Source: Calorimonas adulescens (GTDB taxonomy: Bacteria; Bacillota; Thermoanaerobacteria; Thermoanaerobacterales; UBA4877). Taken from it: a stretch of DNA of 64,000 nucleotides. The translations under genes were made by a program, and so were the position numbers. Of the stretch, positions 147 to 19,122 are shown piece after piece (positions within the stretch are counted from its first letter, which is position 1; each line of letters starts with the position of its first letter). The stretch lies in the NCBI RefSeq assembly GCF_008274215.1, contig NZ_VTPS01000010.1, positions 1-64,000 on the forward strand. The letters run 5' to 3'. Under the pieces are notes generated by a model, which was not told the DNA's origin, ran no database searches, and saw only the letters and a program-made list of their open reading frames with translations.

Positions 147-171
147 AAGAATGTACAAGTGAATATAGAAA

Positions 172-386: not shown

Positions 387-417
387 GGTCTACCTCCGCA
401 GGGGTAGGCTTTTTTTG
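387..417 (+). terminator. Intrinsic terminator of the first B12 riboswitch
   Basis: GTCTACC (389-395) pairs with GGTAGGC (403-409) and is followed by seven T. It lies between the aptamer and the first coding remnant, the place of the regulatory terminator. Confidence 0.8.
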
Positions 418-450
418 ATAATTAGCCAAAAGATGATTTAAAATAGGAGG

Positions 451-648: not shown

Positions 649-668
649 ATAGAAAAGAAGGGATTTAT

Positions 669-1034: not shown

Positions 1035-1065
1035 AGGTCTAGTTTATGGGAAAGGGTTGTTTTTT

Positions 1066-1698: not shown

Positions 1699-1702
1699 AA
1701 CT

Positions 1703-2803: not shown

Positions 2804-3408
2804 CAATTGTGGGAATAGGGCCGGGAAACAAAAAATTCATTACCCCTTATGCACTTGAAAAAATAAAAAAGGCGGATGTGCTAGTGGGAGGCAGGCGCCA
2901 TCTTAAGGAATTTGAAGATGTTAACTGTGAAAAGAGCGTGATAAACGCTTCAACAGATTACCAACATATACTCAATAAAAAAGGCAATATTGTCATTTTG
3001 GCATCAGGAGAACCTTCTTTGTATGGTATAACCGAAGTGATTTTAGAATATGTGGACGAAAGCCAATTAGAAATAGTTCCAGGCATAAGCTCAATACAAT
3101 ACATGTGTGCAAAACTTAAAATGACAATGAATGATTTGACAGTTGTAAGCTTACACGGCCGCAGTGAAGATTTAGTAAAAAAAGTAAAAGAGAATAAAAA
3201 AGTCGTTATTTTTACTGATAAAGCGCATACACCACAATTTATTGCAGCTTTGTTGAAAAAAGCAAATTTGCAGGACAGAAAAATACACGTTGGTGAAAAC
3301 CTGTCTTACGATAACGAAAGAATTTACTCTTTTACGGTAGAGGAGCTTTTAAACTGCAGCAAAAAATTTGATTTAAATGTAGTGGTGATAACATGTGGCA
3401 ATATATGA
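2797..3408 (+). CDS. cbiE: Cobalt-precorrin-7 C5-methyltransferase
   Basis: A 203-residue member of the tetrapyrrole methylase fold. It starts MVTIVGIGPG, the SAM-binding GxGxG loop, followed by ADVLVGGRRHL, which is characteristic of CbiE. Further in, VPGISSIQYMCAKL is the usual substrate-side loop. It methylates C5 and works with CbiT, the next gene; in many bacteria the two are fused as CobL/CbiET. Here they are separate, with the cbiT start 16 bases inside cbiE, so the pair is probably translated in a coupled way. Confidence 0.93.
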   Translation: MVTIVGIGPGNKKFITPYALEKIKKADVLVGGRRHLKEFEDVNCEKSVINASTDYQHILNKKGNIVILASGEPSLYGITEVILEYVDESQLEIVPGISSIQYMCAKLKMTMNDLTVVSLHGRSEDLVKKVKENKKVVIFTDKAHTPQFIAALLKKANLQDRKIHVGENLSYDNERIYSFTVEELLNCSKKFDLNVVVITCGNI

Positions 3409-3977
3409 CACCGGGAATTCCCGATGAATATTTTGTACGAGGTAATGTGCCTATGACAAAGGAAGAAATACGAATTTTGTCAATATCTAAGTTAAGGCTT
3501 AAAGAAGACAGCGTAATATGGGATATTGGCGCTGGTACAGGTTCTGTGTCTGTTGAGGCTGCTTTAATATCAAAAAGAGGCGTTGTCTATTCTATTGAAA
3601 AAGAGGAAGAAGGAATAAAACTTATAAATGAAAACATTAAAAAATTTAACGTGGAAAATATTGTTGTGGTAGCTGGTTTAGCTCCTGATGTCCTTTTAGA
3701 TTTGCCTTCTCCTGATAGGATATTTATTGGAGGAGCAGGGGATAAAATGTATCAAACATTCAAGACTGCTCTAACTAAATTAAAAAGAGATGGAATAATC
3801 GTAGTTAACGGGATTACACTTGATACGGCATATTCTGCTCATCGTTATTTCAAACAAAATAAATATAAGGTTGAGACGATATGTGTAAATATTTCAGTTT
3901 CAAAGGAAGCAGGAAATAAAACGATGATGATAGCGAGAAATCCTGTTTATATAATAACGGCGGAAAAAGAGGGATAG
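3393..3977 (+). CDS. cbiT: Cobalt-precorrin-6B C15-methyltransferase (decarboxylating)
   Basis: A 194-residue Rossmann-type methyltransferase with the SAM-binding motif WDIGAGTGSVSVE (about residues 43-55). The start TPGIPDEYFVRGNVPMTKEEIR is the standard CbiT N-terminus. It methylates C15 and removes the acetate carboxyl at C12. It overlaps cbiE by 16 bases, so the order cbiE-cbiT mirrors the fused CobL protein. No anomalies in length or motifs. Confidence 0.94.
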   Translation: MWQYMTPGIPDEYFVRGNVPMTKEEIRILSISKLRLKEDSVIWDIGAGTGSVSVEAALISKRGVVYSIEKEEEGIKLINENIKKFNVENIVVVAGLAPDVLLDLPSPDRIFIGGAGDKMYQTFKTALTKLKRDGIIVVNGITLDTAYSAHRYFKQNKYKVETICVNISVSKEAGNKTMMIARNPVYIITAEKEG

Positions 3978-3978
3978 A

Positions 3979-4653
3979 ATGACAAAGTTGTATGGTGTAG
4001 GAGTAGGGCCAGGGGAAAAAAGTCTCATTACTTTAAAAGCTGTAGAAACACTTCAAAAAGTAGACGTGGTGATAGCTCCAACAAGCAAGGAGGAAAGAAG
4101 TATTGCCTATGAGATTGCGAAGCCTTATATAAAAGGTGACGTAGTATTTATGGAATTTCCCATGACTTATTCAAGAGAGGACATAAAAACAAAATGGGAA
4201 GAAAATATTGAAAAAATCAGGAAATTGCTTAATGAGGGGAAAGATGTAGCTTTTATAACAATAGGAGACCCCATGATTTATAGTACATACATATACATTT
4301 TGAAAGGAATTGAGGAGTATGAGGTAGAGACCATTTCTGGAATTACCTCCTATAGTGCAGCGGCTTCGAGGTTAAATATTCCAATTGCGGAAGGGAATGA
4401 GGCATTTGCAGTAATTCCATCAGGAGATGTGACAGAAATTTCAAAAGCACTTGATCTATTTGATAACGTAGTATTGATGAAAATTTCAAGAAGATACAAG
4501 GAAATAGTAAAGCTTCTAAAAGAAAAAGACTTCAAAGGATACCTTGTAACAAAGTGCGGTCATCAAGATGAAAAAATATCCTACGACCTTGATAGATACA
4601 TAGGGGAAAAGATAGATTATCTGTCACTCATTATTGCGAAGAAGGTGAAGTAG
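3979..4653 (+). CDS. cbiL: Cobalt-precorrin-2 C20-methyltransferase
   Basis: A 224-residue tetrapyrrole methylase. It starts MTKLYGVGVGPGEKSLITLKA, with the GxGPG SAM loop, and continues DVVIAPTSKEERSIAYEIA, the CbiL/CobI-type segment. FITIGDPMIYSTY and ISGITSYSAAA are the family's other conserved blocks. It acts early, adding the C20 methyl to cobalt-precorrin-2. A GAGGGA ribosome site lies just upstream, within the end of cbiT. Confidence 0.93.
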   Translation: MTKLYGVGVGPGEKSLITLKAVETLQKVDVVIAPTSKEERSIAYEIAKPYIKGDVVFMEFPMTYSREDIKTKWEENIEKIRKLLNEGKDVAFITIGDPMIYSTYIYILKGIEEYEVETISGITSYSAAASRLNIPIAEGNEAFAVIPSGDVTEISKALDLFDNVVLMKISRRYKEIVKLLKEKDFKGYLVTKCGHQDEKISYDLDRYIGEKIDYLSLIIAKKVK

Positions 4654-4655
4654 AC

Positions 4656-5411
4656 GTGATTTATTTTATTGGTGCGGGTCCAGGAGACCCTGAACTTATA
4701 ACATTAAAAGGGGCGAAAATAATACAGTCTTGCGACGTCATCATATACGCAGGGTCACTTGTCAATAAAGAGATATTGAAATACGTAAAACCAGAGGCTG
4801 AAATTTACAATAGCGCTTTAATGAACCTTGATGAAATAATTGAAATCATGATGAATGCTCACAAAGAGGGGAAAGATGTAGCAAGAATACACACAGGAGA
4901 CCCTGCTATTTACGGTGCCATACATGAACAGATTGTAATGTTGGAAGAAGAAAATATAGATTACGAAGTGATTCCCGGCGTCAGTTCTTTTTTAGCAGCA
5001 GCGGCAGTTTTGAAAAAAGAACTGACAATCCCTGAAATAACTCAGACAGTGATTATAACACGAATAGGCGGAAGGACAAAAGTTCCTCCGGAGCAGGAAT
5101 TAAAAGATTTGTCCCGCCATAGAGCTACAATGGCAATATTTTTAAGTGTGCAGGAAATTGACAGAGTCGTCTCAGAGTTGAAGGAAGGTTACCAAGAGAC
5201 TACACCCGTTGCAGTTATCTATAAAGCTACTTGGGAAGACCAAGTAATTGTTACAGGTACTCTTGGTGACATTTCACAAAAAGTCAAATTAAAGGGAATA
5301 AATAAAACAGCTATGATACTTGTAGGAGATTTTTTGAAAGATATAAAAGCCTATTCAAAGCTTTATGATAGAGAATTTTCTCATAGCTTCAGGGGGAAGG
5401 AAGATTTATGA
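4656..5411 (+). CDS. cbiF: Cobalt-precorrin-4 C11-methyltransferase
   Basis: A 251-residue tetrapyrrole methylase starting at GTG. The opening IYFIGAGPGDPELITLKG and CDVIIYAGSLVNKEIL are diagnostic of CbiF/CobM, and RIHTGDPAIYGAIHEQ plus VIPGVSSFLAAAA follow in order. It methylates C11 of cobalt-precorrin-4. Two bases separate it from cbiL, and its stop overlaps the cbiG start. The GTG start is supported by the alignment of the N-terminal beta strand with the family. Confidence 0.93.
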   Translation: MIYFIGAGPGDPELITLKGAKIIQSCDVIIYAGSLVNKEILKYVKPEAEIYNSALMNLDEIIEIMMNAHKEGKDVARIHTGDPAIYGAIHEQIVMLEEENIDYEVIPGVSSFLAAAAVLKKELTIPEITQTVIITRIGGRTKVPPEQELKDLSRHRATMAIFLSVQEIDRVVSELKEGYQETTPVAVIYKATWEDQVIVTGTLGDISQKVKLKGINKTAMILVGDFLKDIKAYSKLYDREFSHSFRGKEDL

Positions 5412-6433
5412 GAATAGCAATAATTGCTCTCACAAAAAATGCGTCAAAGCTGGCAAATGAGATTGGCCCAAAATTAAAAGGGGATGTATATGTAAAAGAA
5501 AAATACGCCATTTCAGGAAACTATGTAATAACAGGAGATTTTATAGACTTTGTACACAAAATATTCAACAAATATCAAGGGCTTGTTTTTGTAATGGCTA
5601 CAGGGATTGTGATAAGGGCAATTGCAGGAGTATTGGAGGACAAATTTTCTGATCCTGCTGTTGTGGTAGTTGACGAAAAAGGAAAGTTTGCAATAAGTCT
5701 TTTATCCGGCCACGCAGGTGGCGCAAATGGGCTTACTTTAGAGGTGGCTTCTATAATCGGAGCACAACCTGTTATAACAACGGCAACAGATGTGGAGAGA
5801 GTCATTTCTTTAGATGTTATTGCTAAAGATTATGGTTACTATATTGAAAATGCGGGGGATTTAAAAAGGGTCAGTGCAGCTCTTGTAAATGGAGAAAATG
5901 TACAGTTTATCCTTGATGAAGATGTAGAGCAAATATCTTTGCTAAAAGATTATATAAAGGACTATGATGACAGTGAAGTTGATGCTTTTGTTTACTTAAC
6001 TGATAAAGAAATAAAAAAACCTTCAGAAAAACCTTATATCATATTAAGGCCTAAAAATATAATTATTGGCTTAGGATGCAAAAAAGGAATAGCTTTTGAG
6101 GATTTGTTTACCTTTGTCAGTGAAATCTTTAAAAACTTAAATTTAAGTTTAAAAAGCATCAAGTCAATTGCTACTATAGATATAAAAAAAGAAGAAAAAG
6201 GGATACTTCAGTTAGCGGAATTTTTAAAAGATCCTGTTGTGTTTTACACAAAAGAAGATTTAAAAAAAGTAGAAGACAAATTTCCCACCTCGAATTTTGT
6301 GCTTCATACAGTAGGAGTTGGAGGTGTTGCAAGGCATTCTGCTTATTTAGCTAGTAGCGGTGGCAAAGAGATAGCATATCTTAAAAGGAATGGGATGACA
6401 CTAGCTGTGTATAAATTCAGAAAGAAGGATTGA
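5408..6433 (+). CDS. cbiG: Cobalt-precorrin-5A hydrolase
   Basis: A 341-residue CbiG protein that opens the delta-lactone ring and releases the C20 carbon as acetaldehyde. The N-terminal domain carries GLVFVMATGIVIRAIAG and LLSGHAGGANGLT, and the C-terminal domain contains IIIGLGCKKGIAFEDL and HTVGVGGVARHSAYLA, both standard for CbiG. The start ATG overlaps the cbiF stop by four bases. Length and domain order are normal. Confidence 0.93.
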   Translation: MRIAIIALTKNASKLANEIGPKLKGDVYVKEKYAISGNYVITGDFIDFVHKIFNKYQGLVFVMATGIVIRAIAGVLEDKFSDPAVVVVDEKGKFAISLLSGHAGGANGLTLEVASIIGAQPVITTATDVERVISLDVIAKDYGYYIENAGDLKRVSAALVNGENVQFILDEDVEQISLLKDYIKDYDDSEVDAFVYLTDKEIKKPSEKPYIILRPKNIIIGLGCKKGIAFEDLFTFVSEIFKNLNLSLKSIKSIATIDIKKEEKGILQLAEFLKDPVVFYTKEDLKKVEDKFPTSNFVLHTVGVGGVARHSAYLASSGGKEIAYLKRNGMTLAVYKFRKKD

Positions 6434-6434
6434 C

Positions 6435-7166
6435 ATGGGATGGATTAAAGTCGTAGGAATAGGTCCTGGTGATATAAATGACATGACTCTTAAAGCCTGC
6501 AATTCCTTAAAAGAATGTGATATAGTTGTAGGATATACCACTTATATAAACCTTATTAAACCTTTAATTAAGGACAAAGAAATAATCTCGTCAGGGATGA
6601 GAAGAGAGGTTGATAGATGCAAAAAAGCTGTTGAGTTAGCTTTACAAGGTAAAAATGTATGTGTTGTGTCGAGCGGTGATGCAGGGATATATGGTATGGC
6701 AGGGCTTATGTATGAGGTGGTCCATAAAGAAAATATAGATTTAAAAATAGAAGTAATACCAGGAGTAACTGCTTTAAATGCTGCAGCAGCTATACTGGGA
6801 GCACCTGTAATGCAAGATTTTGCAGTTATAAGCCTTTCAGACCATTTGATCTCTTGGCAGGTGATAGAAAAAAAGCTAGAACTTTCATCACAGGCTGACT
6901 TTGTAATTGTCCTTTACAACCCTAAAAGCAGAGAAAGACCAGAAAATATTATAAAGGCGCAACAAATTGTTATGAAATATAAAAGAGAGGATATACCTGT
7001 TGGAATAGTAAAAAATGCTTCAAGAGAGGGACAACAACTGATAATCACCACCTTAAAAGAAATGGCAAATTATGAAATTGATATGAGGACAATTGTAATA
7101 ATAGGAAATGAGAGCACTTTTGTAGAAAAAGGCAAAATGATAACGCCGAGGGGATATATTTTATGA
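6435..7166 (+). CDS. cbiH: Cobalt-precorrin-3B C17-methyltransferase
   Basis: A 243-residue tetrapyrrole methylase starting MGWIKVVGIGPGDINDMTLKA. The segment VVGYTTYINLIKPL and the SSGMRREVDRCKKA block are diagnostic of CbiH/CobJ. It methylates C17 and brings about ring contraction. VVSSGDAGIYGMAGL and VIPGVTALNAAAAILGAP follow as expected. It overlaps cbiJ by four bases. Confidence 0.93.
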   Translation: MGWIKVVGIGPGDINDMTLKACNSLKECDIVVGYTTYINLIKPLIKDKEIISSGMRREVDRCKKAVELALQGKNVCVVSSGDAGIYGMAGLMYEVVHKENIDLKIEVIPGVTALNAAAAILGAPVMQDFAVISLSDHLISWQVIEKKLELSSQADFVIVLYNPKSRERPENIIKAQQIVMKYKREDIPVGIVKNASREGQQLIITTLKEMANYEIDMRTIVIIGNESTFVEKGKMITPRGYIL

Positions 7167-7918
7167 TACTGGTTTTGGCAGGTACAAAGGACGGAAGGGA
7201 AATTGCAGAACGATTAAAACTTAAAGATGTTGAGGTTGTAGCAAGTACAGTGACAGATTATGGTGCAAGTATTTTTAGTGAGGGAATTAAAGTCAACAAA
7301 GGTGCACTGGATGAACTGAGCCTCATTGAGTTTATTTATAAAAACAACATAGACATTGTAGTTGATGCGACTCATCCTTTTGCAAAAGATGTGAGCATAA
7401 ATGCTATAAATGCCTGTAACAAAACTGGTATCAAGTATATAAGGTATGAAAGAGAAAGTCTATATTGCCACAATGCCATTATGGTTAAAAGTTTTGAAGA
7501 AGCAGCAGAAGAATGTAAGAAATACGATAGTATTTTTTTGACAATAGGTAGCAAAAACCTTGAAAAATTCAAATTCCTTTGGGAAGCAGGGAAAAAGGTG
7601 ACAGTGAGAGTGCTTCCTTCAAGTAGTATCATTAAAAAATGTGAAGATTTAGGGCTAACACCGAAAGACATAATAGCTATGGAGGGTCCTTTCAGTAGAG
7701 AACTAAATTATCAAATGTTTAAAGAGAAAAAGGCGGAAATAATTGTGACAAAAGAAAGTGGCATTGTGGGAGGAGTGTTAGAAAAATTTGAAGCTGCTAA
7801 AATGCTGGGTATTCCTGTAATTTTAATAAAAAGGCCTGATGTAAATTATCCTGTTGTGTTAACAAATGTTGACAGTCTCATAAAAGAGGTGGCAGAAAGT
7901 GGACATAAACAATATTAA
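7163..7918 (+). CDS. cbiJ: Cobalt-precorrin-6A reductase
   Basis: A 251-residue reductase of the CbiJ/CobK family that reduces the C18-C19 double bond using a nicotinamide cofactor. It opens MILVLAGTKDGREIAERL, the family's start, then VDATHPFAKDVSINA and, near the C-terminus, VTKESGIVGGVLEKFEAA, the conserved T-K-x-S-G block. Its last 20 bases overlap the GTG start of hemA, which links corrin-specific genes to the early tetrapyrrole genes in one unit. Confidence 0.92.
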   Translation: MILVLAGTKDGREIAERLKLKDVEVVASTVTDYGASIFSEGIKVNKGALDELSLIEFIYKNNIDIVVDATHPFAKDVSINAINACNKTGIKYIRYERESLYCHNAIMVKSFEEAAEECKKYDSIFLTIGSKNLEKFKFLWEAGKKVTVRVLPSSSIIKKCEDLGLTPKDIIAMEGPFSRELNYQMFKEKKAEIIVTKESGIVGGVLEKFEAAKMLGIPVILIKRPDVNYPVVLTNVDSLIKEVAESGHKQY

Positions 7919-9086
7919 AATGGTGGGAATAGACAAGGACACTCCCTTAGAGTTGAGAGAAAAAGCCTCTTTTAAAAACATTGGAGATGCATTAGTAAAA
8001 TTGAAAGAGTTGGGACTGGAGGAGGTTGTAATACTTTCCACCTGCCACAGAAGTGAAATTTACTTCTATTCACAAAAAGTAACTCCCCAACAAATAAAAG
8101 AGTTCTTTATTGAGTATTTTGAATTAAACGAAATTTTTTCGGAATACTTAAGGCAGATTTGTGGACTTGACGTAGTAGAACACATTTTTAGAGTTGCCTG
8201 TGGACTTGAATCTATGGTAGTAGGTGAAGACCAAATATTGTCACAGGTAAAAGAGGCTATAAATACTGCACAGGCTTTTAATACTTCAGGGAAAATACTT
8301 TTTAAACTCTTTAGAGATGCAGTAACTCTTGGGAAAAAAGCTCGTGCAGATACGGGCATAAAAGATCTGGCTCTGTCTATAAGCTATATTGCGGTTAAAT
8401 TTGTTCAAGAGATATTTGAGGATATAAAAGGCAAAAAGGCTTTTGTGATAGGTATTGGGGAAATGGGACAAAAAGCCATAAAAAATCTTTTAGATAAAGG
8501 TGCTGATGTGTTTGTAACAAACAGGACTCTTTCAAGGGCTCTCGAATTAAAGGAGCAAATTCCAGAGATACATGTTGTACCTTATGAACAAAAATATCTT
8601 CACATTGCCAGTAGTGATATTGTAATAAGCGCTACAAATGCACCTCATTATACAGTAAGTTATGAAAAATTTAGAGAAGTCTACAATGAAAGAAAAATTT
8701 GTATGGTAGATATAGCTCTTCCGAGGGATATAGACCCGAGGATAGGACAAATGAAAGGAGTAAGCCTTTATACCCTTGACGATTTAAAAAAGACAGCAGA
8801 GGAAAACAAAAAAGAAAGGCTTTCACTTATCACTGTTATTGAAGAAATGGTGAAAGAGGAAGTCAAAGAATTTGACAAATGGTACAAAACCCTTGAAATA
8901 GAGCCCTATATAAAAGAAGTAAGTAGATACGCCCATGAAGTTTATAACACAGAATTTCAAAGAATTGCAAATAAATTGATTGACTCATCTGAAAAAGACA
9001 AGGAAAATATAAAAATCGCTTTAAGAAGAGTTGCAAACAAGATGGCTAATAAAATGATAACGTATCTTAAAGAAAGCGCTTATTAG
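7899..9086 (+). CDS. hemA: Glutamyl-tRNA reductase
   Basis: A 395-residue HemA protein that reduces glutamyl-tRNA to glutamate-1-semialdehyde, the entry step of the C5 tetrapyrrole pathway. The catalytic cysteine sits in ILSTCHRSEIY (Cys49), and the NADPH-binding AFVIGIGEMGQKAIKNL motif begins near residue 180. The GTG start inside cbiJ is chosen because MDINNIKMVGIDKDTP fits the family's first strand and has AGAGGTGG upstream; an ATG seven codons later would cut that strand. No hemE or protoporphyrin genes follow, so its product here feeds corrinoids and siroheme. Confidence 0.95.
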   Translation: MDINNIKMVGIDKDTPLELREKASFKNIGDALVKLKELGLEEVVILSTCHRSEIYFYSQKVTPQQIKEFFIEYFELNEIFSEYLRQICGLDVVEHIFRVACGLESMVVGEDQILSQVKEAINTAQAFNTSGKILFKLFRDAVTLGKKARADTGIKDLALSISYIAVKFVQEIFEDIKGKKAFVIGIGEMGQKAIKNLLDKGADVFVTNRTLSRALELKEQIPEIHVVPYEQKYLHIASSDIVISATNAPHYTVSYEKFREVYNERKICMVDIALPRDIDPRIGQMKGVSLYTLDDLKKTAEENKKERLSLITVIEEMVKEEVKEFDKWYKTLEIEPYIKEVSRYAHEVYNTEFQRIANKLIDSSEKDKENIKIALRRVANKMANKMITYLKESAY

Positions 9087-9102
9087 ATATTTGGAGGTAA
9101 AG

Positions 9103-10002
9103 ATGAAAAAAGTTGTAAGAGTTGGTACAAGGTCAAGCGAACTTGCGCTTATGCAAACTATTATAGTTATAAATGAAATAAAAAAGTCTATGCAGGATTT
9201 TGAATTTGAAATAGTAAAGATAACCACACAAGGAGATGCATCAACTGATAGACCTATTAGTGAAATAGGAGGAAAAGGAGTTTTTGTAAAAGAGATAGAA
9301 GATGCATTGCTCAAAGGCGAAATTGACATGGCAGTCCACAGCATGAAGGATATGCCTTATGAAATACCTGAAGGGCTTAAACTCCTGGCAGTTTTAAAAA
9401 GAGAAGACCCAAAGGATGTGTTTGTTTCAAGAGATGGGACACAATTTATGGATTTAAAAGAAAGAGCTAAGATTGGAACCGGCAGTTTAAGAAGACAAGT
9501 GCAGCTCAAAGCCTTAAGGCCGGACATAGAGATTGTTCCAATAAGAGGGAATATAAAGACGAGACTCAAAAAAATGGAGGAATTAGACCTTAATGGCATT
9601 GTTTTGGCAGCGGCAGGTTTGCATAGGTTAGGATTTGAGAATGTTATTACTGAGTATTTTCCACCTGATGTAATTGTACCAGCACCCTGCCAGGGGATTC
9701 TTGCGGTTGAAATTGCAGAAAATTTTGGTAATATATTTCAAGAATTTTATCCCCACATTGTTGATAGAAAAACATTTTTTGAGGCTTTTGTTGAAAGGGA
9801 ACTTCTAAAAGCCTTTGGAGTTAATTGTAGACAACCTTTTGGCGCCTATGCCCAATACAGAAAAGAGGAAGACAAAGAAAAAATAGACGTAAAAGTTGCT
9901 TATCAAAAAGAAAATAAACTTTTAAAGGGTGAAATGACTGGCTTAATTGAAGAAACCGATAAAATAATAGAAAAGCTTATTAAAGAATTTGGAGGTTTAT
10001 GA
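9103..10002 (+). CDS. hemC: Hydroxymethylbilane synthase (porphobilinogen deaminase)
   Basis: A 299-residue enzyme joining four porphobilinogens into hydroxymethylbilane. It starts RVGTRSSELALMQT, has HSMKDMPYEIP and the GTGSLRRQVQL arginine-rich substrate loop, and the dipyrromethane cofactor cysteine is Cys242 in GVNCRQPFGAYA. GGAGGT five bases upstream supports the ATG at 9103. The end overlaps the next gene by four bases. Confidence 0.96.
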   Translation: MKKVVRVGTRSSELALMQTIIVINEIKKSMQDFEFEIVKITTQGDASTDRPISEIGGKGVFVKEIEDALLKGEIDMAVHSMKDMPYEIPEGLKLLAVLKREDPKDVFVSRDGTQFMDLKERAKIGTGSLRRQVQLKALRPDIEIVPIRGNIKTRLKKMEELDLNGIVLAAAGLHRLGFENVITEYFPPDVIVPAPCQGILAVEIAENFGNIFQEFYPHIVDRKTFFEAFVERELLKAFGVNCRQPFGAYAQYRKEEDKEKIDVKVAYQKENKLLKGEMTGLIEETDKIIEKLIKEFGGL

Positions 10003-11495
10003 TGTCAGGGATTGTATACTTGATTGGGGCAGGACCTGGAGATATTGGGCTTTTGACATTAAGAGCAGTGGAAGTTATAAAAAATGCAGATGTGTTGGTG
10101 TATGACAGGCTCATTAATGAAGATATTTTAAAAATAGCAAAAAAAGATGCAGAGCTTATTGATGTGGGAAAGTTTCCAGATAACCACAAAGTACCTCAAA
10201 GTAAAGTAAACGAAATAATTGCCCAAAAAGCTTTTTGTGGCAAAAAAGTAGCCAGAATTAAAGGAGGAGACCCCTTTGTATTCGGAAGAGGTGGAGAAGA
10301 AGCCGAATACCTTTCAGAGAAAGGAATACCTTATGAGGTAGTGCCGGGCATAACATCTGCAGTGGCTGTCCTATCCTACGCAGGAATTCCTGTAACCCAT
10401 AGAGATTTAAGTTCGTCATTTCACGTAATAACGGGTCATGAATGGAAAGGGAAAGATAAAGACCTCGATTGGGAGGTCATATCAAAACTCGATGGGACAC
10501 TTGTATTTCTCATGGGAATAAAAAATATAGAAAAAATTGTGCAAAAGCTTCTCTATTACGGCAAAGACCCTAATACCCCTACAGCAGTAGTAATGGAAGG
10601 CACTACTCCAAACCAAAAAGCTGTGACAGCAAAACTCATTAACATTCCACAACTTGTGCAAAAAGAAGGAATAAAAAATCCTGCAGTTATCGCTGTAGGA
10701 GATGTTGTAACATTAAGGGACAGACTAAAATGGTATGAAGACAAAAAGCTTTTTGGAAAAAGGATTTTGCTTACAAGGACCTATGAACAGTCACAGCAGA
10801 TGAAAAAAATTTTGAGTGAAGAGGGAGCAGATGTTGTTGTTTGTCCTACTATTAAAATCACGCCTTTTTTAGATAATACAGTGGTGTTTTTAGAAGAGAT
10901 ACATAAATTTGATTATGCTGTATTTACAAGTGTAAATGGCGTTTGGAGCTTTATTGAAGCTGTCAGAAAAAAAAGATTTGATTTAAGAAATTTAAGTATT
11001 AAAGTAGTGGCAATAGGGAGTAAGACTGCGGAAGCTTTAGAAAATATTTTTATATATCCAGATATAATTCCTGAGGAATACACCTCCTACTCTTTGGCAA
11101 ATGCACTTAAAAAACATGTTGAAGGAAAAAACATAGCACTTTTAACCTCTCAAATAGGCGGGAATATATTGATAGAAAGTCTCGAAGATTGTGCTGAAGT
11201 ACAAAAAATTGTTGCCTATAGAAATGAACCAAATTATGAAATAAAGGGAAAGCTTATAAGTGAACTCCGCAAAGGAATAGATATTGCTGTATTTACAAGT
11301 TCCTCTACTTTTAATTACATGTATCAATTAATAGGAGACGAAATAAATCTTCTAAAAAACTCTAAAATAGCTGCAATAGGACCTGTAACCCAAAAAGCCA
11401 TACAGGATAAAGGATTTAATGTAGACATAGTGCCCAGGGAATACACAACGCAAAAGCTTATTGAAGAAATGTTAAGAAATCATCAGAATCTATAA
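9999..11495 (+). CDS. cobA-hemD: Uroporphyrinogen-III C-methyltransferase / uroporphyrinogen-III synthase fusion
   Basis: A 498-residue two-domain protein. The first ~245 residues form a SUMT (CobA/CysG-C type) methylase: YLIGAGPGDIGLLTLRA, VYDRLINEDIL, KGGDPFVFGRGGEEAEYL and VVPGITSAVAVLSYAGIPVT. From about residue 250 (KRILLTRTYEQSQQMKKIL) to the end is HemD, the uroporphyrinogen-III synthase. The fusion carries out ring closure and then C2/C7 methylation to precorrin-2, as known in several Firmicutes. Two ATG codons overlap at 9999 and 10002; either could start. Confidence 0.94.
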   Translation: MMSGIVYLIGAGPGDIGLLTLRAVEVIKNADVLVYDRLINEDILKIAKKDAELIDVGKFPDNHKVPQSKVNEIIAQKAFCGKKVARIKGGDPFVFGRGGEEAEYLSEKGIPYEVVPGITSAVAVLSYAGIPVTHRDLSSSFHVITGHEWKGKDKDLDWEVISKLDGTLVFLMGIKNIEKIVQKLLYYGKDPNTPTAVVMEGTTPNQKAVTAKLINIPQLVQKEGIKNPAVIAVGDVVTLRDRLKWYEDKKLFGKRILLTRTYEQSQQMKKILSEEGADVVVCPTIKITPFLDNTVVFLEEIHKFDYAVFTSVNGVWSFIEAVRKKRFDLRNLSIKVVAIGSKTAEALENIFIYPDIIPEEYTSYSLANALKKHVEGKNIALLTSQIGGNILIESLEDCAEVQKIVAYRNEPNYEIKGKLISELRKGIDIAVFTSSSTFNYMYQLIGDEINLLKNSKIAAIGPVTQKAIQDKGFNVDIVPREYTTQKLIEEMLRNHQNL

Positions 11496-11513
11496 ACGGG
11501 GAGAGGAGATAAA

Positions 11514-12488
11514 ATGGATTTAGTAAAAAGGCCAAGAAGACTTAGAGTGAACAGCATTTTAAGGGGTATGATTAGAGAAACTTCTTTAGATGCGGGTGAC
11601 CTTATATATCCTCTTTTTGTTGTGTCAGGTAAAAATATAAAAGAAGAGATAGATTCAATGCCGGGTGTTTACCACTTTTCTATAGATTTGCTTATAGAAG
11701 AAGTCAAAGAAGTGCGTGACCTTGGAATTCCTGCTATTTTACTTTTTGGTATACCTTCATATAAAGATGAATTGGGGTCAGAGGCTTATAGTGAGGAAGG
11801 TATCGTTCAAAAAGCTGTAAGAAAAATAAAAGAAAAAGTGCCAGAAATTGTAGTAATAACAGATGTGTGCATGTGTGGATATACAACGCATGGACACTGT
11901 GGCATTGTTGAAAACGGCCAAGTTCTAAATGACAAAACAGTAGACTACATTGCTAAAATAGCCTTGTCCCATGTTGAGGCAGGGGCGGATATTGTAGCAC
12001 CCTCTGACATGATGGATGGAAGAGTAGCTACCATAAGAAAGCTTTTAGATAGTAAAGGATTTGTAAATACACCTATTATGGCTTACAGTGCTAAATACGC
12101 TTCCTCTTTTTATGGACCTTTTAGAGAAGCAGCCAATTCTGCTCCACAATTTGGTGACAGAAAGTCTTATCAGATGGACTATGGAAACTCCAATGAAGCC
12201 TTAAGAGAAATAGCTCTTGACATCGAAGAAGGAGCAGATATTGTCATGGTAAAACCCGCACTTTCTTATCTTGATATTATAAGGCGGGTAAAAGATAATT
12301 TCAACATTCCTATTGCTGCTTACAATGTAAGTGGAGAATATTCAATGGTAAAGGCGGCAGCTAAGATGGGATGGATTGATGAGAAATCTACAGTCTTAGA
12401 AATACTTGCTTCAATTAAAAGGGCAGGGGCAGATATGGTTATAACCTACTTTGCAAAGGATGTTGCAAAATGGCTTACTACCCTATAA
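11514..12488 (+). CDS. hemB: Delta-aminolevulinic acid dehydratase (porphobilinogen synthase)
   Basis: A 324-residue HemB that condenses two aminolevulinic acids to porphobilinogen. Catalytic lysines are in [16 protein letters not shown] and [12 protein letters not shown], and the zinc-binding cysteine cluster is [15 protein letters not shown], so a zinc-dependent form. GGGGAGAGG sits at normal spacing before the ATG. Its end overlaps the start of the sirC-like gene by 19 bases. Confidence 0.96.
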
Positions 12489-13060
12489 TGCTTAATATAA
12501 AAAACAAAAAATGTCTTGTTGTAGGAGGTGGTAAAGTTGCTCTCCGGAAAATTTTATCTTTTGTTGAAGGAGAGGCTTTAATCACTGTCATTTCTCCTTC
12601 TTTTGATGAGGAAATAATTAAGCTTGCAGCAAAAGAAAAGGTGGAGCTTATAAGACGTGAGTATCAACAAGGGGATGTAAGGGGATTTTTTGTTGCGATT
12701 GCTGCTACAGATGATGAGAAGGTAAATAAACTTGTGGCGTCAGATGGAGAAAAATACAATATGCTTGTAAATGTGGTTGATGATAAAGACCTTTCTTCCT
12801 TCATTGTACCTTCCATTGTAAGAAGGGGAGACTTAATTATCTCTATATCTACAAGTGGCAAAAGTCCACTTTTTTCGAGAATGATAAAAGAAAAGTTGGA
12901 GTCAATCTTCAATGCTGACTATGAAAAACTATTACAAAAGCTATACCAGAAGAGGATAGAATTAAAAGACAAAGGCTTCACTGAGGAAGAAAAAATGGCT
13001 ATTTACAAAGAATTTATTGAAAAAAGCGGTTTGTTAGAAATAAACGGAGATGAATGTTAA
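12470..13060 (+). CDS. sirC: Precorrin-2 dehydrogenase (siroheme-pathway oxidase)
   Basis: A 196-residue protein of the Met8/CysG N-terminal family. The NAD-binding loop is [13 protein letters not shown] (about residues 15-27); [17 protein letters not shown] and [24 protein letters not shown] are the other family blocks. It oxidises precorrin-2 to sirohydrochlorin, the substrate that CbiX loads with cobalt. It lacks the methylase half of CysG, supplied here by the CobA-HemD fusion. The start overlaps hemB; an ATG seven codons later is possible but would shorten the N-terminal strand. Confidence 0.92.
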
Positions 13061-13211
13061 AATAATTCTACGTTAACTCTTGAAAAATGTTCTTTATCAA
13101 AAGTAAATATCTTTTAATAAGTATCTTAAAATGACATTGCCGTAAATTTATTCTTTTTTTCAATCACTAAAATTTATTCATGAAACCTGCAATCTAATAA
13201 GAGGTGGTTAT

Positions 13212-14513
13212 GTGAAAACTGACAAATCAAATGAATTATTTGAAAGAGCTAAAAAAGTCATGCCAGGTGGTGTAAACAGTCCAGTTAGAGCTTTCAAATC
13301 AGTAGAGTCTACCCCCATTTTCATTAAAAGAGGTCAGGGAAGTCATATTTTGGATGAAGATGGCAATGAATATATAGACTATGTCCTTTCATGGGGGCCA
13401 TTAATACTGGGGCACTCACATCCAGAGGTGGTGGAAGCTATTAAAAAGCAGGCACAATTAGGGGCTAGTTTTGGAGCCTGCACGGAGTTAGAAGTTAAAA
13501 TGGCTGAAAAAATAACTGAGTCTGTTCCATCTATAGAAGTTGTCAGAATGGTGAATTCAGGCACAGAAGCCACAATGAGTGCAATAAGGCTGGCTAGGGG
13601 GTATACGGGCAGAGACATCATTGTAAAATTTGAAGGATGTTATCACGGGCATTCTGACAGTTTGCTTATAAAGGCAGGGTCAGGGGCCCTTACTTTTGGA
13701 ATGCCTGATTCAAAAGGTGTAACAAAAGAGATAGCAAAGGATACAATTATAGCCAAATACAATGACATCAAAATGGTAGAAGATATTTTTCGAATTTATG
13801 GTAAAAATATTGCTGCTGTCATTGTAGAGCCTATTGCAGGTAATATGGGTACAGTCTTACCTGAAGAGGGATTTTTAAAGGGATTGAGAGAGATTACTGC
13901 AAAGTATGGATCACTTTTAATTTTTGATGAAGTAATGACAGGTTTTAGAGTGTCTTATTCAGGGGCACAAGGGCTTTACGGCATTATACCTGACATTACC
14001 ACGCTTGGGAAAATCATTGGAGGTGGACTTCCTGTTGGTGCCTATGGAGGAAGAGAAGAGATAATGAGAAAGGTTTCTCCTGATGGACCAGTGTATCAAG
14101 CAGGGACTTTGTCTGGCAATCCTTTAGCAATGGCAGCAGGTCTTGAGACTTTTAAAATATTATCTAAAACTTCTAATATTTACGAAGAGCTGGATAAAAA
14201 GGCAGAAAAATTGTGTACGGGGTTAAAAGAAAGTATGGTTCAAAATGGAATTGATGTTATAATAAATAGAATAGGCAGCATGATGTGCATGTTTTTTAAT
14301 AAAGATGAAGTGAAAGACTATGATTCTGCTTTAAAATCAAATACTGTTATGTATGCTGCATATTTTAGAGAAATGTTAAAAAGAGGTGTGTACTTACCTC
14401 CTTCTCAATTTGAGACTTTCTTTTTATCGATAGCTCACACGGAGGATGATATTGAAAAAACAATTGAAGCTAGTTTTGAAGCTGCAAAAGTTATTCGACA
14501 GGACTTAAAATAA
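13212..14513 (+). CDS. hemL: Glutamate-1-semialdehyde 2,1-aminomutase
   Basis: A 433-residue PLP enzyme converting glutamate-1-semialdehyde to 5-aminolevulinate. The PLP lysine is Lys267 in [34 protein letters not shown] is the family's opening, and [13 protein letters not shown] and [11 protein letters not shown] are also present. The GTG start has AAGAGGTGG upstream. A 151-base gap separates it from sirC; it could have its own weak promoter there (TTGAAA at 13080), or be read through from the operon. Confidence 0.96.
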
Positions 14514-14517
14514 CAGT

Positions 14518-14546
14518 TTGATAACCTATTTGTAAAATGATATGCT
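14518..14546 (+). promoter_or_regulatory. Promoter of the cbiMNQO riboswitch transcript
   Basis: TTGATA at 14518-14523 and TATGCT at 14541-14546 with 17 bases between, ending about 30 bases before the second cobalamin aptamer. Confidence 0.5.
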
Positions 14547-14575
14547 TTATTTGAGAATAAAATTTAATAACAGGC

Positions 14576-14756
14576 AAATACAGGTACCCAATTTTGAAGT
14601 CAAATTGGGTTAAAAGGGAAGCAGGTGAAAATCCTGCACGGTCCCGCCACTGTGATGGTGAGCTTTTTACATTATGCCACTGTCCTTTTACATAAGTGCT
14701 GGATGGGAAGGTGTAAAGAGAGATGAACCTAAGTCAGGAGACCTGCCTGTATTTGT
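14576..14756 (+). ncRNA. Cobalamin (B12) riboswitch ahead of cbiMNQO
   Basis: The closing strands AAATACAGG (14576-14584) and CCTGTATTT (14746-14754) enclose GGGAAGCAGGTGAAAATCC, the CCCGCCACTGTGATGG block, an ATGCCACTG segment and the B12 box AAGTCAGGAGACCTGCC at 14731-14747. A terminator follows at 14817-14857. It should shut off cobalt import when adenosylcobalamin is plentiful. Confidence 0.94.
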
Positions 14757-14816
14757 GACACACTTACTCTACGGTCGATAGAGGGGAGTGCTATAAAGGG
14801 ATAAGTATGTGATTTT

Positions 14817-14857
14817 TACCTCTTAACGCCGTTAGTAAGTTAAGAGGTTTTATTTTT
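14817..14857 (+). terminator. Terminator of the second B12 riboswitch
   Basis: CCTCTTAAC (14819-14827) pairs perfectly with GTTAAGAGG (14839-14847), followed by TTTTATTTTT. It lies between aptamer and cbiM. Confidence 0.85.
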
Positions 14858-14889
14858 GCTTAAATTTTACAAAAAGAGAGGTGTGTGTG

Positions 14890-15642
14890 ATGAAAAGGAT
14901 GGAAAAGTGGATGTTACTTGCAGCATTTGCGTTGCTTTTAATGGCTCCACAAACTGCCTATGCCATGCACATAATGGAAGGCTTTCTTCCTCTTAAATGG
15001 TGTACAATATGGTATATAGCATCTTTGCCTTTTGTGGTCGTAGGACTTGTAGCAATAAACAAAAAAGTAAAAGAGAATCCAAAACTTAAGATGCTTTTAG
15101 GGTTTGCAGGTGCTTTTGCATTTTTGCTTTCATCACTTAAAATCCCTTCAGTCACAGGAAGTTGTTCACATCCAACCGGTGTAGGACTTGGAGCTATACT
15201 CTTTGGACCCTTTGCTATGAGCGTTTTAGGCCTTATAGTGCTTTTGTTTCAGGCATTACTTTTGGCACATGGCGGTATAACAACCTTAGGTGCTAATACA
15301 TTTTCTATGGCTATAGTAGGGCCAATTGCTTCCTATTATATATTTAAATTAGTAAAAAAAGCAGGTGGGCCAAATTGGCTTGCAGTATTTTTAGCTGCTT
15401 CAATTGGGGATTTGCTTACATATGTGACTACCTCTTTCCAACTTGCTATTGCTTTCCCTTCTGAAATAGGCGGATTTACAGCCTCATTTTTAAAATTCAT
15501 GGGGATATTTGCAGTGACACAGGTACCTTTGGCAATAAGTGAAGGGCTTTTAACGGTGCTCGTAATCAATATGCTAACCGTCTACAGCGAAGAAGAACTT
15601 ATTGAGCTCAATGTTTTAGAGAGAGAAGGCAAGACAACATGA
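14890..15642 (+). CDS. cbiM: Cobalt ECF transporter S component CbiM
   Basis: A 250-residue membrane protein that binds Co2+ and forms the specificity unit of the CbiMNQO importer. A cleavable signal (residues 1-25, ending AYA) would expose Met-His-Ile-Met-Glu-Gly, the free N-terminus whose His coordinates cobalt in this family. [18 protein letters not shown] and several hydrophobic helices follow. The ATG at 14890 has GAGAGGTG at good spacing; a GTG three codons earlier lies within that site. Next in the operon is cbiN, overlapping by four bases. Confidence 0.95.
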
Positions 15643-15932
15643 AGGATAAAAGGTTTTTAATGAAGAATTTAATATTAGGCTTATTGGTTATTTTGCTGGT
15701 GGTGTTTCCTCTTGTGACTATAAAAAATGCTGAATTTGTTGGTGCAGATGATAAGGCGGCAGAAGCTATCGCTCAGGTGGACAAAAATTACAAGCCATGG
15801 TTTAAACCAATTTGGGAACCACCGAGTGGAGAAATTGAGAGCCTTCTGTTTGCCTTACAGGCTGCAATTGGTGCAGGATTTTTGGGATATTATATAGGTG
15901 TTGCGAAAGGGAGAAAAAATGTTAATAGATAG
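15639..15932 (+). CDS. cbiN: Cobalt transporter accessory protein CbiN
   Basis: A 97-residue protein with an N-terminal and a C-terminal transmembrane helix. Between them is the characteristic external loop [12 protein letters not shown] and [24 protein letters not shown] read in order, with the [15 protein letters not shown] segment that defines CbiN. It loads or positions cobalt on CbiM. The last 14 bases overlap the cbiQ start. Confidence 0.94.
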
Positions 15933-16686
15933 TTATGCTTACACCAACAGGATGTACAATGTACATCCTGTTGAAAAACTTTTATTTGCCTTTTTAACTA
16001 TGATTTTATGCTTTAAATTTGACACCTATACAAATATTGCAATAATTATTTTAATGTTTGTGATAACCGTATTTAAAGCAAAAATTCCAGGAAAAGTGTA
16101 CATTAAGCTTATGTTAATTCCCTTTTCCTTTCTGGTAATAAGTATAATGACACTTGTCATAAATGTGATAGGGAATAAAAGTACTGCATTAATAAGCTTT
16201 AATATTTTTAGAGTAACTTTAGGAATCACTGCACAAGGCATTGATACTGCTGTTATTTTATTCTTCAGAACTTTAGCAATAGTGTCTTGTTTGTATTTTC
16301 TTGCTCTTACCACTCCTGTAGTTGATATTATAAATATCTTAAAGAAATTTAAATTTCCATCACTATTTTTGGAGTTACTTCAACTGATTTATAGGCTTAT
16401 TTTTGTTTTAATGCAAGCCGCTGATGAAATCTATATATCTCAAGATTCAAGGTTGGGATATGCTACATTGAGAAATAGCTATAGGTCTTTAGGACTTTTA
16501 ATATTCTCTCTTTTTATTAAGTCATACAAAAATTCACAGGATTTATATGTGGCCTTAGAGGCAAGGGGTTATAATGAAGAGATAAAAGTCCTCAGTAAAG
16601 ATTACAAGCTTTGTTATAAAAATATAATATTTATTGTTTTGATAGAACTAATTTTAATAGGCGCATCAATGCTTTTAAGAAGGTGA
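15919..16686 (+). CDS. cbiQ: Cobalt ECF transporter T component CbiQ
   Basis: A 255-residue hydrophobic protein of the EcfT/CbiQ family that links the S component to the ATPase. The coupling-helix signature is present near the C-terminus as ALEARGYNEEIKVL (the A-x-x-x-R-G motif). The frame is open seven codons further upstream, but the ATG at 15919 has AAAGGGAGA at normal spacing. It overlaps the end of cbiN. Confidence 0.93.
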   Translation: MLIDSYAYTNRMYNVHPVEKLLFAFLTMILCFKFDTYTNIAIIILMFVITVFKAKIPGKVYIKLMLIPFSFLVISIMTLVINVIGNKSTALISFNIFRVTLGITAQGIDTAVILFFRTLAIVSCLYFLALTTPVVDIINILKKFKFPSLFLELLQLIYRLIFVLMQAADEIYISQDSRLGYATLRNSYRSLGLLIFSLFIKSYKNSQDLYVALEARGYNEEIKVLSKDYKLCYKNIIFIVLIELILIGASMLLRR

Positions 16687-16689
16687 ACT

Positions 16690-17520
16690 ATGAAAGAACA
16701 ATTTATATTGGAAGCGATAGATGTGAGTTTTGAGTACAGTGACGGCACAGAAGCTTTGGTTGGAGTAAATATGTTGATAGAGAAGGGTAAAAAGATTGCG
16801 GTTTTAGGTCCAAATGGTGCAGGCAAGACAACACTGTTTTTACACTTCAATGGGATTTTGAAACCAAAATCAGGGAAAATATTATACAAGGGTGAAGAGA
16901 TAAATTACAGTCATAGTGAACTTGTAAAACTTAGAAAAAATGTCGGCATCGTTTTTCAAAATCCTGACATACAGCTTTTCTCTGCCAGTGTATACCAAGA
17001 AATTTCTTTTGGTCCTATGAACTTAGGTTATCCAGAAAATATAGTAAAAGAGAAAGTTGAAAACGCCATGAAAAAAGCGAAAATTATGGATTTGAAGGAC
17101 AAGCCCACCCATTTTTTAAGCTATGGACAGAAAAAAAGTGTCTCAATAGCCGATATTATAGTTATGGAGCCTGAAGTTATTATATTGGATGAGCCAACGG
17201 TTTATTTAGACCCTAAGCATGTTCAAGAAATTATGGTTTTCTTTGACAGATTAGTTGAAGAGGGAAAGACAATCATTTTATCAACCCATGATGTGGACTT
17301 TGCTTATTCATGGGCTGACTATATATATGTCATGAAGAATGGAAAAGTTGTTGCAAAGGGTGAACCAACAGTTGTTTTTACTAATGCAAAAGAACTTGAT
17401 TGGAATGATTTGAGAAAGCCTATGCTTTTAGAGATATATGAAATTTTGAAAGAAAAAGGTATTATAAATGGAAGCAGTATACCAAAAAATATAGAAGAAT
17501 TAAAGAAGTACATAAAATAA
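16690..17520 (+). CDS. cbiO: Cobalt ECF transporter ATPase CbiO
   Basis: A 276-residue ABC ATPase. Walker A is LGPNGAGKTTLF (about residues 39-50), the Q-loop NVGIVFQNPDIQLFS is typical of ECF ATPases, the signature is LSYGQKKSVS, Walker B VIILDEPT, and the switch histidine STHDVD. It powers cobalt uptake with CbiM, CbiN and CbiQ. It is the last gene of the unit and is followed by a terminator. Confidence 0.95.
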   Translation: MKEQFILEAIDVSFEYSDGTEALVGVNMLIEKGKKIAVLGPNGAGKTTLFLHFNGILKPKSGKILYKGEEINYSHSELVKLRKNVGIVFQNPDIQLFSASVYQEISFGPMNLGYPENIVKEKVENAMKKAKIMDLKDKPTHFLSYGQKKSVSIADIIVMEPEVIILDEPTVYLDPKHVQEIMVFFDRLVEEGKTIILSTHDVDFAYSWADYIYVMKNGKVVAKGEPTVVFTNAKELDWNDLRKPMLLEIYEILKEKGIINGSSIPKNIEELKKYIK

Positions 17521-17550
17521 AAACTGCTGAGGATTTAGCAGTTTTTATTT
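17521..17550 (+). terminator. Terminator of cbiMNQO
   Basis: AAACTGCT pairs with AGCAGTTT around a short loop, followed by TTATTTTCTTTTT. It starts at the stop codon of cbiO. Confidence 0.85.
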
Positions 17551-17557
17551 TCTTTTT

Positions 17558-17726
17558 GTTCTTGAGGAAGTAATTGCGAAAGAATGAGATTACAGCGGTG
17601 GAACGCGGGGATGCTTTAGGAGTCAGCCTGAAGTATGCCTTGGCTTACCTCGAATATTTTGGTAAAATAAAAATAACAAGACGCAATGGCGATTTTAGAA
17701 TCTTGATTAGGGGTGAAAAGACGTGA
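17558..17726 (+). pseudogene. selB: 3' relic of selB (selenocysteine-specific elongation factor)
   Basis: From 17574 a frame ending TGA at 17724-17726 contains NEITAVERGDALGVSLKYA and AYLEYFGKIKITRRNGDFR, which match the last winged-helix domain of SelB (EIT..EFRD.LG.SRKYA, LLEYFD, TRRxGDxR). Just upstream, one base out of frame, is VLEEVIAK, which fits the residues expected before it, with the shift at about 17582. The GTPase and other domains are gone; the fragment begins directly after the cbiO terminator. SelB delivers selenocysteinyl-tRNA at SECIS-bearing UGA codons. This remnant of about 55 codons, broken by a frameshift and a stop (TAA at 17571), cannot function. Confidence 0.8.
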
Positions 17727-18625
17727 GAAAAAATATAGTGCTTCTCTTATTGGTAGTTATGATAGGCCTGGCCGGCTGTTCGCTTTTTTCATCAGAAAAA
17801 CCAAAAGCTGAGCCGCAGGAAAGACAGATTGATGTGACTCTTTATTATGCGAACCGTGATAACAGTGACCTTGTGAAGGAAAAAAGACATATTAGTTATA
17901 AAGAAGGAGACAATCTTTACAAGATTGTCATTGAAGAACTTTTGAAAGGACCTACAGACAAAGATGCCTATCTGAGGGTACCTGAAGGTACCAAGGTAAA
18001 TAGCGTGACTTTAAATGACGGGGTTGCCAGTGTGGATCTGAGCGGTTTCACTGGTTTTAAAGGAGTTATGGATGAGGCTATGGCAAGAGCATCAATAGTA
18101 AATACCCTGACATCTTTAGATGGTGTAGATAAAGTGCTTATAACTGTAAATGGGAAAGAATATATAGGAGCAAGCGGTAATCCAGTAGGCCCTATGGGCC
18201 CTATAGATTTTTCTGATATGTACAGGGTATACTTTTCTGATATGAATGGTGAATATCTTGTACCAGAACTGAGAACTATAGATAAATCAAAGCCGCCTGC
18301 GGAAGCTATAATAGAAGAACTGATAAAAGGACCAACAAGAAGTGACCTGACAAAAACCATGCCTGATGGTACCAGACTGATCTCTTTAGAAGTAACAAAT
18401 GGTGTCGCTTATGTTAATTTTTCAAGGGAATTTAAGGAAAATCACTGGGGAGGGAGTTCAGGAGAGACCATGACCCTTTATTCTGTAGTAGATTCTCTAA
18501 CTGAACTTCCTGAAATTAAGAAGGTACAGTTCCTCATTGAAGGGAATAAAACAGATACATTGGCCGGTCATTATGATATATTAAATCCGTTGGATAGAGA
18601 CCCAACATTAATAAAGGATGAGTAA
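17723..18625 (+). CDS. GerMN-domain lipoprotein
   Basis: A 300-residue secreted lipoprotein. The signal peptide ends in GLAGCS, with Cys19 as the lipidation site. Two GerMN domains follow (about residues 38-150 and 165-285), each with the family's ...EELLKGPT... and ...EELIKGPT... motif. GerM takes part in sporulation and germination, where it anchors the SpoIIIA-SpoIIQ channel ring in Bacillus; other GerMN lipoproteins have unassigned roles. The GTG start overlaps the TGA of the selB relic by two bases, which suggests it was once coupled to intact selB. Confidence 0.88.
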   Translation: MRKNIVLLLLVVMIGLAGCSLFSSEKPKAEPQERQIDVTLYYANRDNSDLVKEKRHISYKEGDNLYKIVIEELLKGPTDKDAYLRVPEGTKVNSVTLNDGVASVDLSGFTGFKGVMDEAMARASIVNTLTSLDGVDKVLITVNGKEYIGASGNPVGPMGPIDFSDMYRVYFSDMNGEYLVPELRTIDKSKPPAEAIIEELIKGPTRSDLTKTMPDGTRLISLEVTNGVAYVNFSREFKENHWGGSSGETMTLYSVVDSLTELPEIKKVQFLIEGNKTDTLAGHYDILNPLDRDPTLIKDE

Positions 18626-18628
18626 ATA

Positions 18629-18657
18629 TTGACAATGGACCTCAATGATAGTAATAT
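18629..18657 (+). promoter_or_regulatory. Promoter of the tRNA-Sec gene
   Basis: TTGACA at 18629-18634 and TAATAT at 18652-18657 with a 17-base spacer, ending 13 bases before the tRNA. It is one of the best promoter matches in the window. Confidence 0.7.
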
Positions 18658-18670
18658 GTGAAGAGTGTGC

Positions 18671-18769
18671 GGAGGAGTAGATGGGTGCTGGTGTACCTCA
18701 TGGTCTTCAAAACCAGTGTGACGCCTTAAAGAGGTGTCGGGTGGATTCGATTCTCAAATACTCCCGCCA
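18671..18769 (+). tRNA. selC: tRNA-Sec (anticodon UCA), possibly decaying
   Basis: This 99-base gene has the unusual length, the long variable arm (GACGCC pairing with GGTGTC) and the anticodon loop CTTCAAA with UCA that define selenocysteine tRNA, and it ends in an encoded CCA preceded by G. Several pairs expected in a working molecule are missing: the acceptor strand GGAGGAGT faces ATACTCCC instead of ACTCCTCC, the T stem GTGGA/CTCAA has two mismatches, and the outermost anticodon-stem pair is A-G. The promoter is intact. With selB truncated nearby, loss of function is likely (inference), although a divergent working tRNA cannot be ruled out. Confidence 0.78.
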
Positions 18770-18819
18770 TTTTTTAACAATATTGTTGCCCCGTTCATAT
18801 AATGAATGGGGGTGATGAT

Positions 18820-19122
18820 ATGTCTGATATATTAACTGTCATTATATCCGTTATCATTTCTGTGCTTATCTATTTTATTGGACTTCCCTATCTTGTTAAG
18901 ACTTTGGGTCAGGACAGGATGGACACTATAATGCAGATAGTAAAAAATGTTGTTTATTCCATCGAACAGACGCTAAGGGATGTGGATGGAGAAGTAAAGA
19001 AGCAAGAGGCAATGAAATTAGCGAAAGAAATTTTGGGCAGTTTAAAGATAGAAATTGACGATAAAATGCTTGATATGCTGATTGAGTCAGCAGTGTTTTT
19101 AATGAACAATTCTTTTAGATAA
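18820..19122 (+). CDS. LL-H-type phage holin-like protein
   Basis: A 100-residue protein with one N-terminal transmembrane helix (about residues 3-25) and a long helical tail containing SIEQTLRDVDGEVKKQEAMK, which resembles the LL-H holin family (Phage_holin_6_1). Such holins form membrane pores in phage lysis, but isolated copies are common on clostridial chromosomes with unknown roles. The start is the ATG after GGGGGTGAT; the open frame extends six codons upstream. No other phage genes are adjacent. It lies 50 bases after the tRNA-Sec gene. Confidence 0.72.
   Translation: MSDILTVIISVIISVLIYFIGLPYLVKTLGQDRMDTIMQIVKNVVYSIEQTLRDVDGEVKKQEAMKLAKEILGSLKIEIDDKMLDMLIESAVFLMNNSFR

Follow-up and report, generated by a model that had tools for sequence, protein, structure and literature searches.

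Remains of a selenocysteine operon in Calorimonas adulescens: a heme/B12/cobalt-uptake island stands where selA and most of selB were

The window, by which we mean the whole stretch of DNA that was analysed, comprises 64,000 nucleotides (positions 1-64000 of contig C10) of the Calorimonas adulescens genome (G000; 2.59 Mb in 54 contigs, 98.67% complete, contamination 0.1%). Eleven contigs shorter than 2.5 kb, 15,062 bases in total, were read as N. The left part of the window holds the following features.

1-99, no strand: end of an ISNCY-type insertion sequence (IS), inside which the contig starts; the same end is found on 6 other contig termini
100-117, no strand: target-site duplication of the IS, identical at 17 of 18 positions to the copy beside a selD remnant on contig C7
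118-17555 (edges approximate), plus strand: heme/B12/cobalt-uptake island of 17.4 kb, replacing selA and 92% of selB, 86.7-88.5% identical in DNA to genome G018
160-331, plus strand: cobalamin riboswitch at the head of the island (RF00174, 135.7 bits)
14565-14764, plus strand: cobalamin riboswitch before the cbi transport genes (RF00174, 128.8 bits)
17514-17551, plus strand: terminator-like hairpin after cbiO, which ends at 17520
17574-17726, plus strand: selB remnant, winged helix 4 (PF09107 match; the last 47 codons within an open 50-codon frame)
17723-18625, plus strand: intact gerMN-like lipoprotein gene with a GTG start (PF10646, 195 bits)
18629-18657, plus strand: promoter-like site of selC, TTGACA-17-TAATAT, aligned at the same place in the relative
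18673-18769, plus strand: selC (tRNA-Sec) remnant with damage in the acceptor and T stems but with its UCA anticodon and CCA end still present (ARAGORN; RF01852)

A scan of the named genomes with the GerMN protein returned six loci, the best of which (L018, 78% identity) lies in the nearest relative, the MAG Thermoanaerobacteraceae bacterium Yes75-04 (G001), the only other listed genome of the family. There, on contig C33, comEA, selD, selA, selB, gerMN and selC are consecutive, so that the comparison with a close relative, proposed in a preliminary description of this DNA, turned up an intact operon. The order comEA-selD-selA-selB recurs in G010 and G011, and gerMN directly follows selB in the ancestral arrangement. 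Gene order and neighbours are shared between the Yes75-04 operon and the locus in G000, and the remnants and flanks are about 73-79% identical in DNA; unlike in G000, however, all sel genes of Yes75-04 are intact and the island is missing. Similarity to L018 breaks off at its position 4721, between selD and selA, and returns at 7857, within selB, and selA together with 92% of selB is therefore missing from G000. Elsewhere in the two genomes, a stretch of 2.45 kb is 99% identical between G000 (C3:76000-78451; L145 1-2452) and G001 (C17; L147 11194-13645) although the DNA beside it is 78% identical, which suggests either a transfer in the very recent past or a mobile element common to both.

SelA makes selenocysteine (Sec) on tRNA-Sec, SelB delivers it, and SelD supplies selenophosphate. 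What remains of SelB in G000 is its last 47 codons (17580-17726), which encode the C-terminal winged helix and are 74% identical to codons 576-625 of the SelB of L018 (625 aa). This tail scored 43.3-44.5 bits against PF09107 (cut-off 23.2) and is the sole match to that family in the genome; none of the eight matches to the full-length profile TIGR00475 in G000, with the 11 contigs shorter than 2.5 kb read as N, exceeded the cut-off. The preliminary description had correctly recognised that the last winged helix is all that is left of SelB and that it starts just past the cbiO terminator. It had also placed a one-base frame break at about 17582, which we did not find: the frame is free of stops from TTG 17574, which follows TAA 17571-17573, to TGA 17724-17726, and the DNA resembles the relative's selB from 17579 onward, the sequence upstream being unrelated. 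A frameshift inside selB was thus ruled out, and the break is the junction with foreign DNA. In the tail, 3 of the 12 residues that are invariant across 10 intact SelB proteins are altered (alignment positions 9, 16 and 27). Pairwise comparison with the relative over the 47 codons (NG86) gave a dN of 0.12 and a dS of 0.74, a ratio that mixes functional and non-functional time and is hence no proof of present constraint. The open frame and the low overall dN/dS suggest either that decay is recent or that some constraint is left.

The gerMN gene is intact and its GTG overlaps the selB TGA at 17724-17726, both as previously described; its product is 78% identical to the counterpart in L018. Beyond selC on the 3' side, a 106-aa membrane protein of the LLH phage holin family (18802-19122; PF09682, 50 bits) is conserved in the relative.

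The degenerate tRNA-Sec gene that had been noted 1 kb downstream of the selB tail was recovered by both ARAGORN and RF01852. It scored 50.7 bits against RF01852 (gathering score 47), compared to 74.0-76.4 bits for the genes of seven relatives (G001, G009, G010, G011, G013, G021 and G018); the best other match to this family among 24 genomes of the order, at 49.8 bits, lies close below it. We aligned the eight tRNA-Sec genes and drew the cloverleaf by hand, with 28 pairs. Four of these are broken in G000 (1-93, A-C; 28-44, A-G; 69-85, G-A; 73-81, A-C). None is broken in five of the other genes, and one each in G013 and G021, in both cases 28-44, which is thus unpaired also in two genomes with intact Sec systems. 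At 68 columns that are invariant in the other seven genes G000 carries 6 private changes; the like count is 1 for G001, 2 for G011 and 0 for the rest. Of the 5 T-stem pairs, G000 retains 2 as Watson-Crick pairs and 1 as a wobble; its acceptor stem opens with an A-C pair. The gene therefore falls short of an intact cloverleaf, although its score still passes the gathering threshold.

The remaining Sec genes were sought by profile searches across the genome of G000, in which the 11 contigs shorter than 2.5 kb were read as N. There was no match to the SelA family PF03841, and of four matches to the SelD profile TIGR00476 none exceeded the cut-off, one of them being a true selD remnant. The genome search suggested earlier thus found no intact selA, selB or selD outside the contigs read as N, and the idea that the tail is a partial selB duplicate beside an intact copy elsewhere was rejected on that basis. 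SelA scores of about 500 bits were obtained in 6 of the 24 genomes of the order (G001, G009, G010, G011, G013 and G021); weaker matches to the same profile, at 19-66 bits, in 5 further genomes were taken for other PLP enzymes. The selD remnant lies outside the window, for which reason the preliminary description missed it, at the end of contig C7 (G000:C7:about 180-594, minus strand). It consists of residues 1-90 and 288-335 fused over a 609-bp internal deletion; its second part contains stops and changes of frame. It keeps its in-frame UGA. SelD carries such a UGA in all six intact operons that were read, the Sec UGA being codon 14. The selenoprotein families searched were Fdh and SelD: three stretches in G000 matched Fdh below the family cut-off and none above it, G011 has Fdh with an in-frame TGA at two places, and the Fdh of G001 is over the cut-off without an in-frame TGA. 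The absence of selA, the reduction of selB to its tail and the deleted, stop-bearing selD remnant together support the earlier proposal that the Sec system has been lost here. As a separate observation, an EF-Tu-like frame at G000:C4:26806-28008 (L002) has two TAA codons inside the matched stretch, possibly an end effect or a damaged copy.

The DNA that now occupies the gap encodes precorrin, heme and cobalt-transport functions (10 proteins were run against NCBIfam). It is 88.5% identical to the DNA of G018, a genome of another family, over 12.5 kb (653-13115) and 86.7% identical over 4.4 kb (13199-17530). Its right edge falls within 17531-17579, between the last position that resembles G018 (17530) and the first that resembles the relative's selB (17579). 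The island was not detected in the nearest relative, G001, where the sole DNA match was a 157-base riboswitch region. Matches to CobA-HemD were found in 46 of 61 genomes, G001 not among them. The best came from 8 genomes of genus g5, in another family (89-91%), followed by g6 (67%) and g3 (58-62%); we take g5 to be probably Thermoanaerobacter. In a CobA-HemD tree, G000 is nested in g5 with 100/100 support, beside G018 at 92/83. As a core control we used a 904-aa protein, the only one common to the three core stretches fetched, which is 49% identical between G000 and G018 and 84% identical between G000 and G001. Being much closer to a distant clade than the core protein is, and absent from the sister genome, the island was, as judged from these identities and the tree, acquired horizontally from a donor in a different family. 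The corrinoid region of G009 (L144) was ruled out as its source, with only 71% identity over about 2 kb.

At the left junction, contigs C7 and C10 both start inside a copy of the IS. Of the IS ends that we read in G000, 5 are left and 9 are right ends; each left end pairs with exactly one right end by a duplication of 17-18 bp, and 4 of the 9 right ends are without a left partner among the ends read. C7 pairs with C10 by a 17-bp target duplication. Because these duplications pair, everything from the selD remnant through the IS and the island to the selB tail is best read as a single stretch, and a chromosomal rearrangement that parted the selD and selB sides was ruled out. The IS adjoins the island's own promoter. 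The roughly 68 bases that separate the selD remnant from the IS aligned to G021 only weakly and with gaps, and the left edge of the island is hence approximate.

The placement of this IS is a finding apart from the Sec locus. All 9 right ends in G000 have their best promoter-like pair 16-18 bases from the IS end, with a spacing of 16-17 bases, and the IS is always in one orientation, with the -35 box of a sigma-A-type promoter immediately downstream of its duplication. As a control, 60-mers drawn at random from the window gave a promoter offset of 15-19 in 13%. Twelve copies of a distant relative of the IS occur in G011 (31% identity over 73 aa at the transposase end), with duplications of 18-19 bp in 11 of the 12 and the best promoter starting at base 17-18 in 10 of the 12; two copies (L179 and L183) have the same flank. 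In G086 the IS end was located in 3 of the 4 copies examined, and the placement holds in 2 of these 3. The loci used were window 1-146, L037-L045, L047 and L049-L052 of G000, L169, L173, L176 and L178-L186 of G011, and L171, L174 and L177 of G086. Related transposases of 448-455 aa match NF033594 (ISNCY) at 433-446 bits, that of G000 being seen as a 79-aa end only. The IS1202 long-duplication group is defined by an IS1202-related transposase of 394-507 aa, 5'-TGT ends and duplications of 16-28 bp; the elements examined here have TGT ends and duplications of 17-19 bp and may belong to that group. A 2023 paper states that no target was found for it (PMC10132070), and our literature search found no report of promoter targeting by it. 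Promoter-guided insertion by this IS may therefore be new.

A second Sec fossil was found in G018 (C1:1676571-1677200; L098, L056). It resembles that of G000 in that selA is absent, selB is in scraps (SelB residues 228-292 and 546-623 only) and selC is still there. It differs in that the losses are plain deletions, selC is undecayed (intact-looking, 75.3 bits) and the sel locus is free of a B12 island, G018's own lying near C1:325,000-343,000. A YedF-like gene nearby is intact.

In G000, homologous remains stand in the ancestral position, parts have been lost and constraint is relaxed. We therefore regard the locus as the wreck of a Sec operon in which the island now stands in place of selA and most of selB and the whole pathway fails, with a probability of about 0.88. 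From the gene contents and junctions, the transferred island and the decay of selC, selD and the SelB tail, we infer the following order of events and functional collapse. The ancestor would have had the full order comEA-selD-selA-selB-gerMN-selC and have used UGA for Sec in SelD at the least. The island from a donor of another family would then have come to lie where selA and the 5' 92% of selB had been, and without SelA and SelB, Sec could be neither made nor inserted. Since translation of SelD itself depends on a Sec UGA, losing either selA or selB would stop SelD too, and the whole pathway would go down at once; such an abrupt collapse is plausible. Afterwards selD would have suffered its internal deletion and frame damage and selC would have lost acceptor and T-stem pairing, while the SelB tail, still readable, lost conserved residues and gerMN stayed intact.

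The preliminary description had guessed that Sec loss and the arrival of the B12 island were one event. The geometry fits, as a transferred island lies between the broken ends of an operon; that there was a single event is a further step. We give it slightly under even odds: one transfer would have physically removed selA and most of selB as the island arrived, the UGA of SelD would have made the collapse a one-step affair, and gerMN, the SelB tail and selC would be bystanders, the last two of which have drifted. A rival, to which we give a chance clearly short of even, is that the Sec system was already dead, with selection relaxed and the selenoproteins gone, when the island inserted into a useless operon. 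The fossil in G018, which is independent and has no B12 island in its sel locus, indicates that operons of this order decay by plain deletion as well, and the selD of G000 has an internal deletion of its own. Damage on either side of the island is moderate, however, the SelB tail being open and selC still recognised, which suggests, though not decisively, that the loss preceded the island by little, if at all.

The SelB tail could instead be kept as a short leader frame whose translation feeds the overlapping gerMN start. Such a role would suit the 50 open codons from TTG 17574, the GAGGAAG upstream of that codon, the stop overlapping the gerMN GTG and the low overall dN/dS, but three residues invariant in 10 intact SelB proteins are gone and 50 open codons need no selection if the loss is recent, and we consider it unlikely. 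Co-option of the altered tRNA, for example for UGA suppression or serine delivery, appears highly unlikely: the promoter-like site, the UCA anticodon and the CCA end are kept, but the T stem has only 3 of its 5 pairs left, one of them a wobble, the acceptor stem opens with A-C, and no partner factor was seen. That the island came from another organism by misassembly or contamination is the least probable reading. It would suit a contig that begins within a repeat and an island whose sequence identity is foreign. Yet the edges of the island meet both broken halves of one operon, on the selB side within a continuous contig and on the selD side through the 17-bp duplication shared by C7 and C10, so that misjoining would be needed twice at matching places. 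Contamination is 0.1%, and the decay of selC and selD does not depend on the join.

Loss of the Sec trait as such is already known. One case is reported by Romero et al. (2005; PMC1273633), in which selB is a frameshift pseudogene in Yersinia pestis CO92 and Mediaevalis. Sec decoding was lost recently there, with selB broken and other sel genes still present, as in G000. There the damage described is one frameshift, with selA, selC and selD kept, whereas in G000 selA is gone, selB is a tail, selD and selC are decayed and an island fills the gap. Six losses of SelD with the whole Sec trait in sister genomes are described for Clostridia and Deltaproteobacteria in the available portion of another study (PMC1794560); these are of the same lineage-specific kind, and in the same broad group as G000, but that portion describes presence and absence, while in G000 both the relics and the DNA that took over the locus can be followed at single-base resolution. 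Two further papers are cited among known cases of Sec loss (PMC5029168, PMC5330540). A thin literature search returned no case of a Sec operon replaced by a transferred island, only general accounts of Sec loss, and it is the loss with replacement that is the new part.

Two fossils, one arising by replacement and the other by plain deletion, were present among the 24 genomes of the order, which indicates that the trait is repeatedly being lost. Sec loss is mostly deduced from presence and absence, whereas this locus still shows the relics, the junctions and the incoming DNA, next to an intact close relative, which makes the order and cause of the loss testable with a few more strains. The locus would also show why Sec loss can be abrupt, as SelD is a selenoprotein and loss of selA or selB would disable the selenium donor too. 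If the single-event reading is true, one transfer traded one trait for another.
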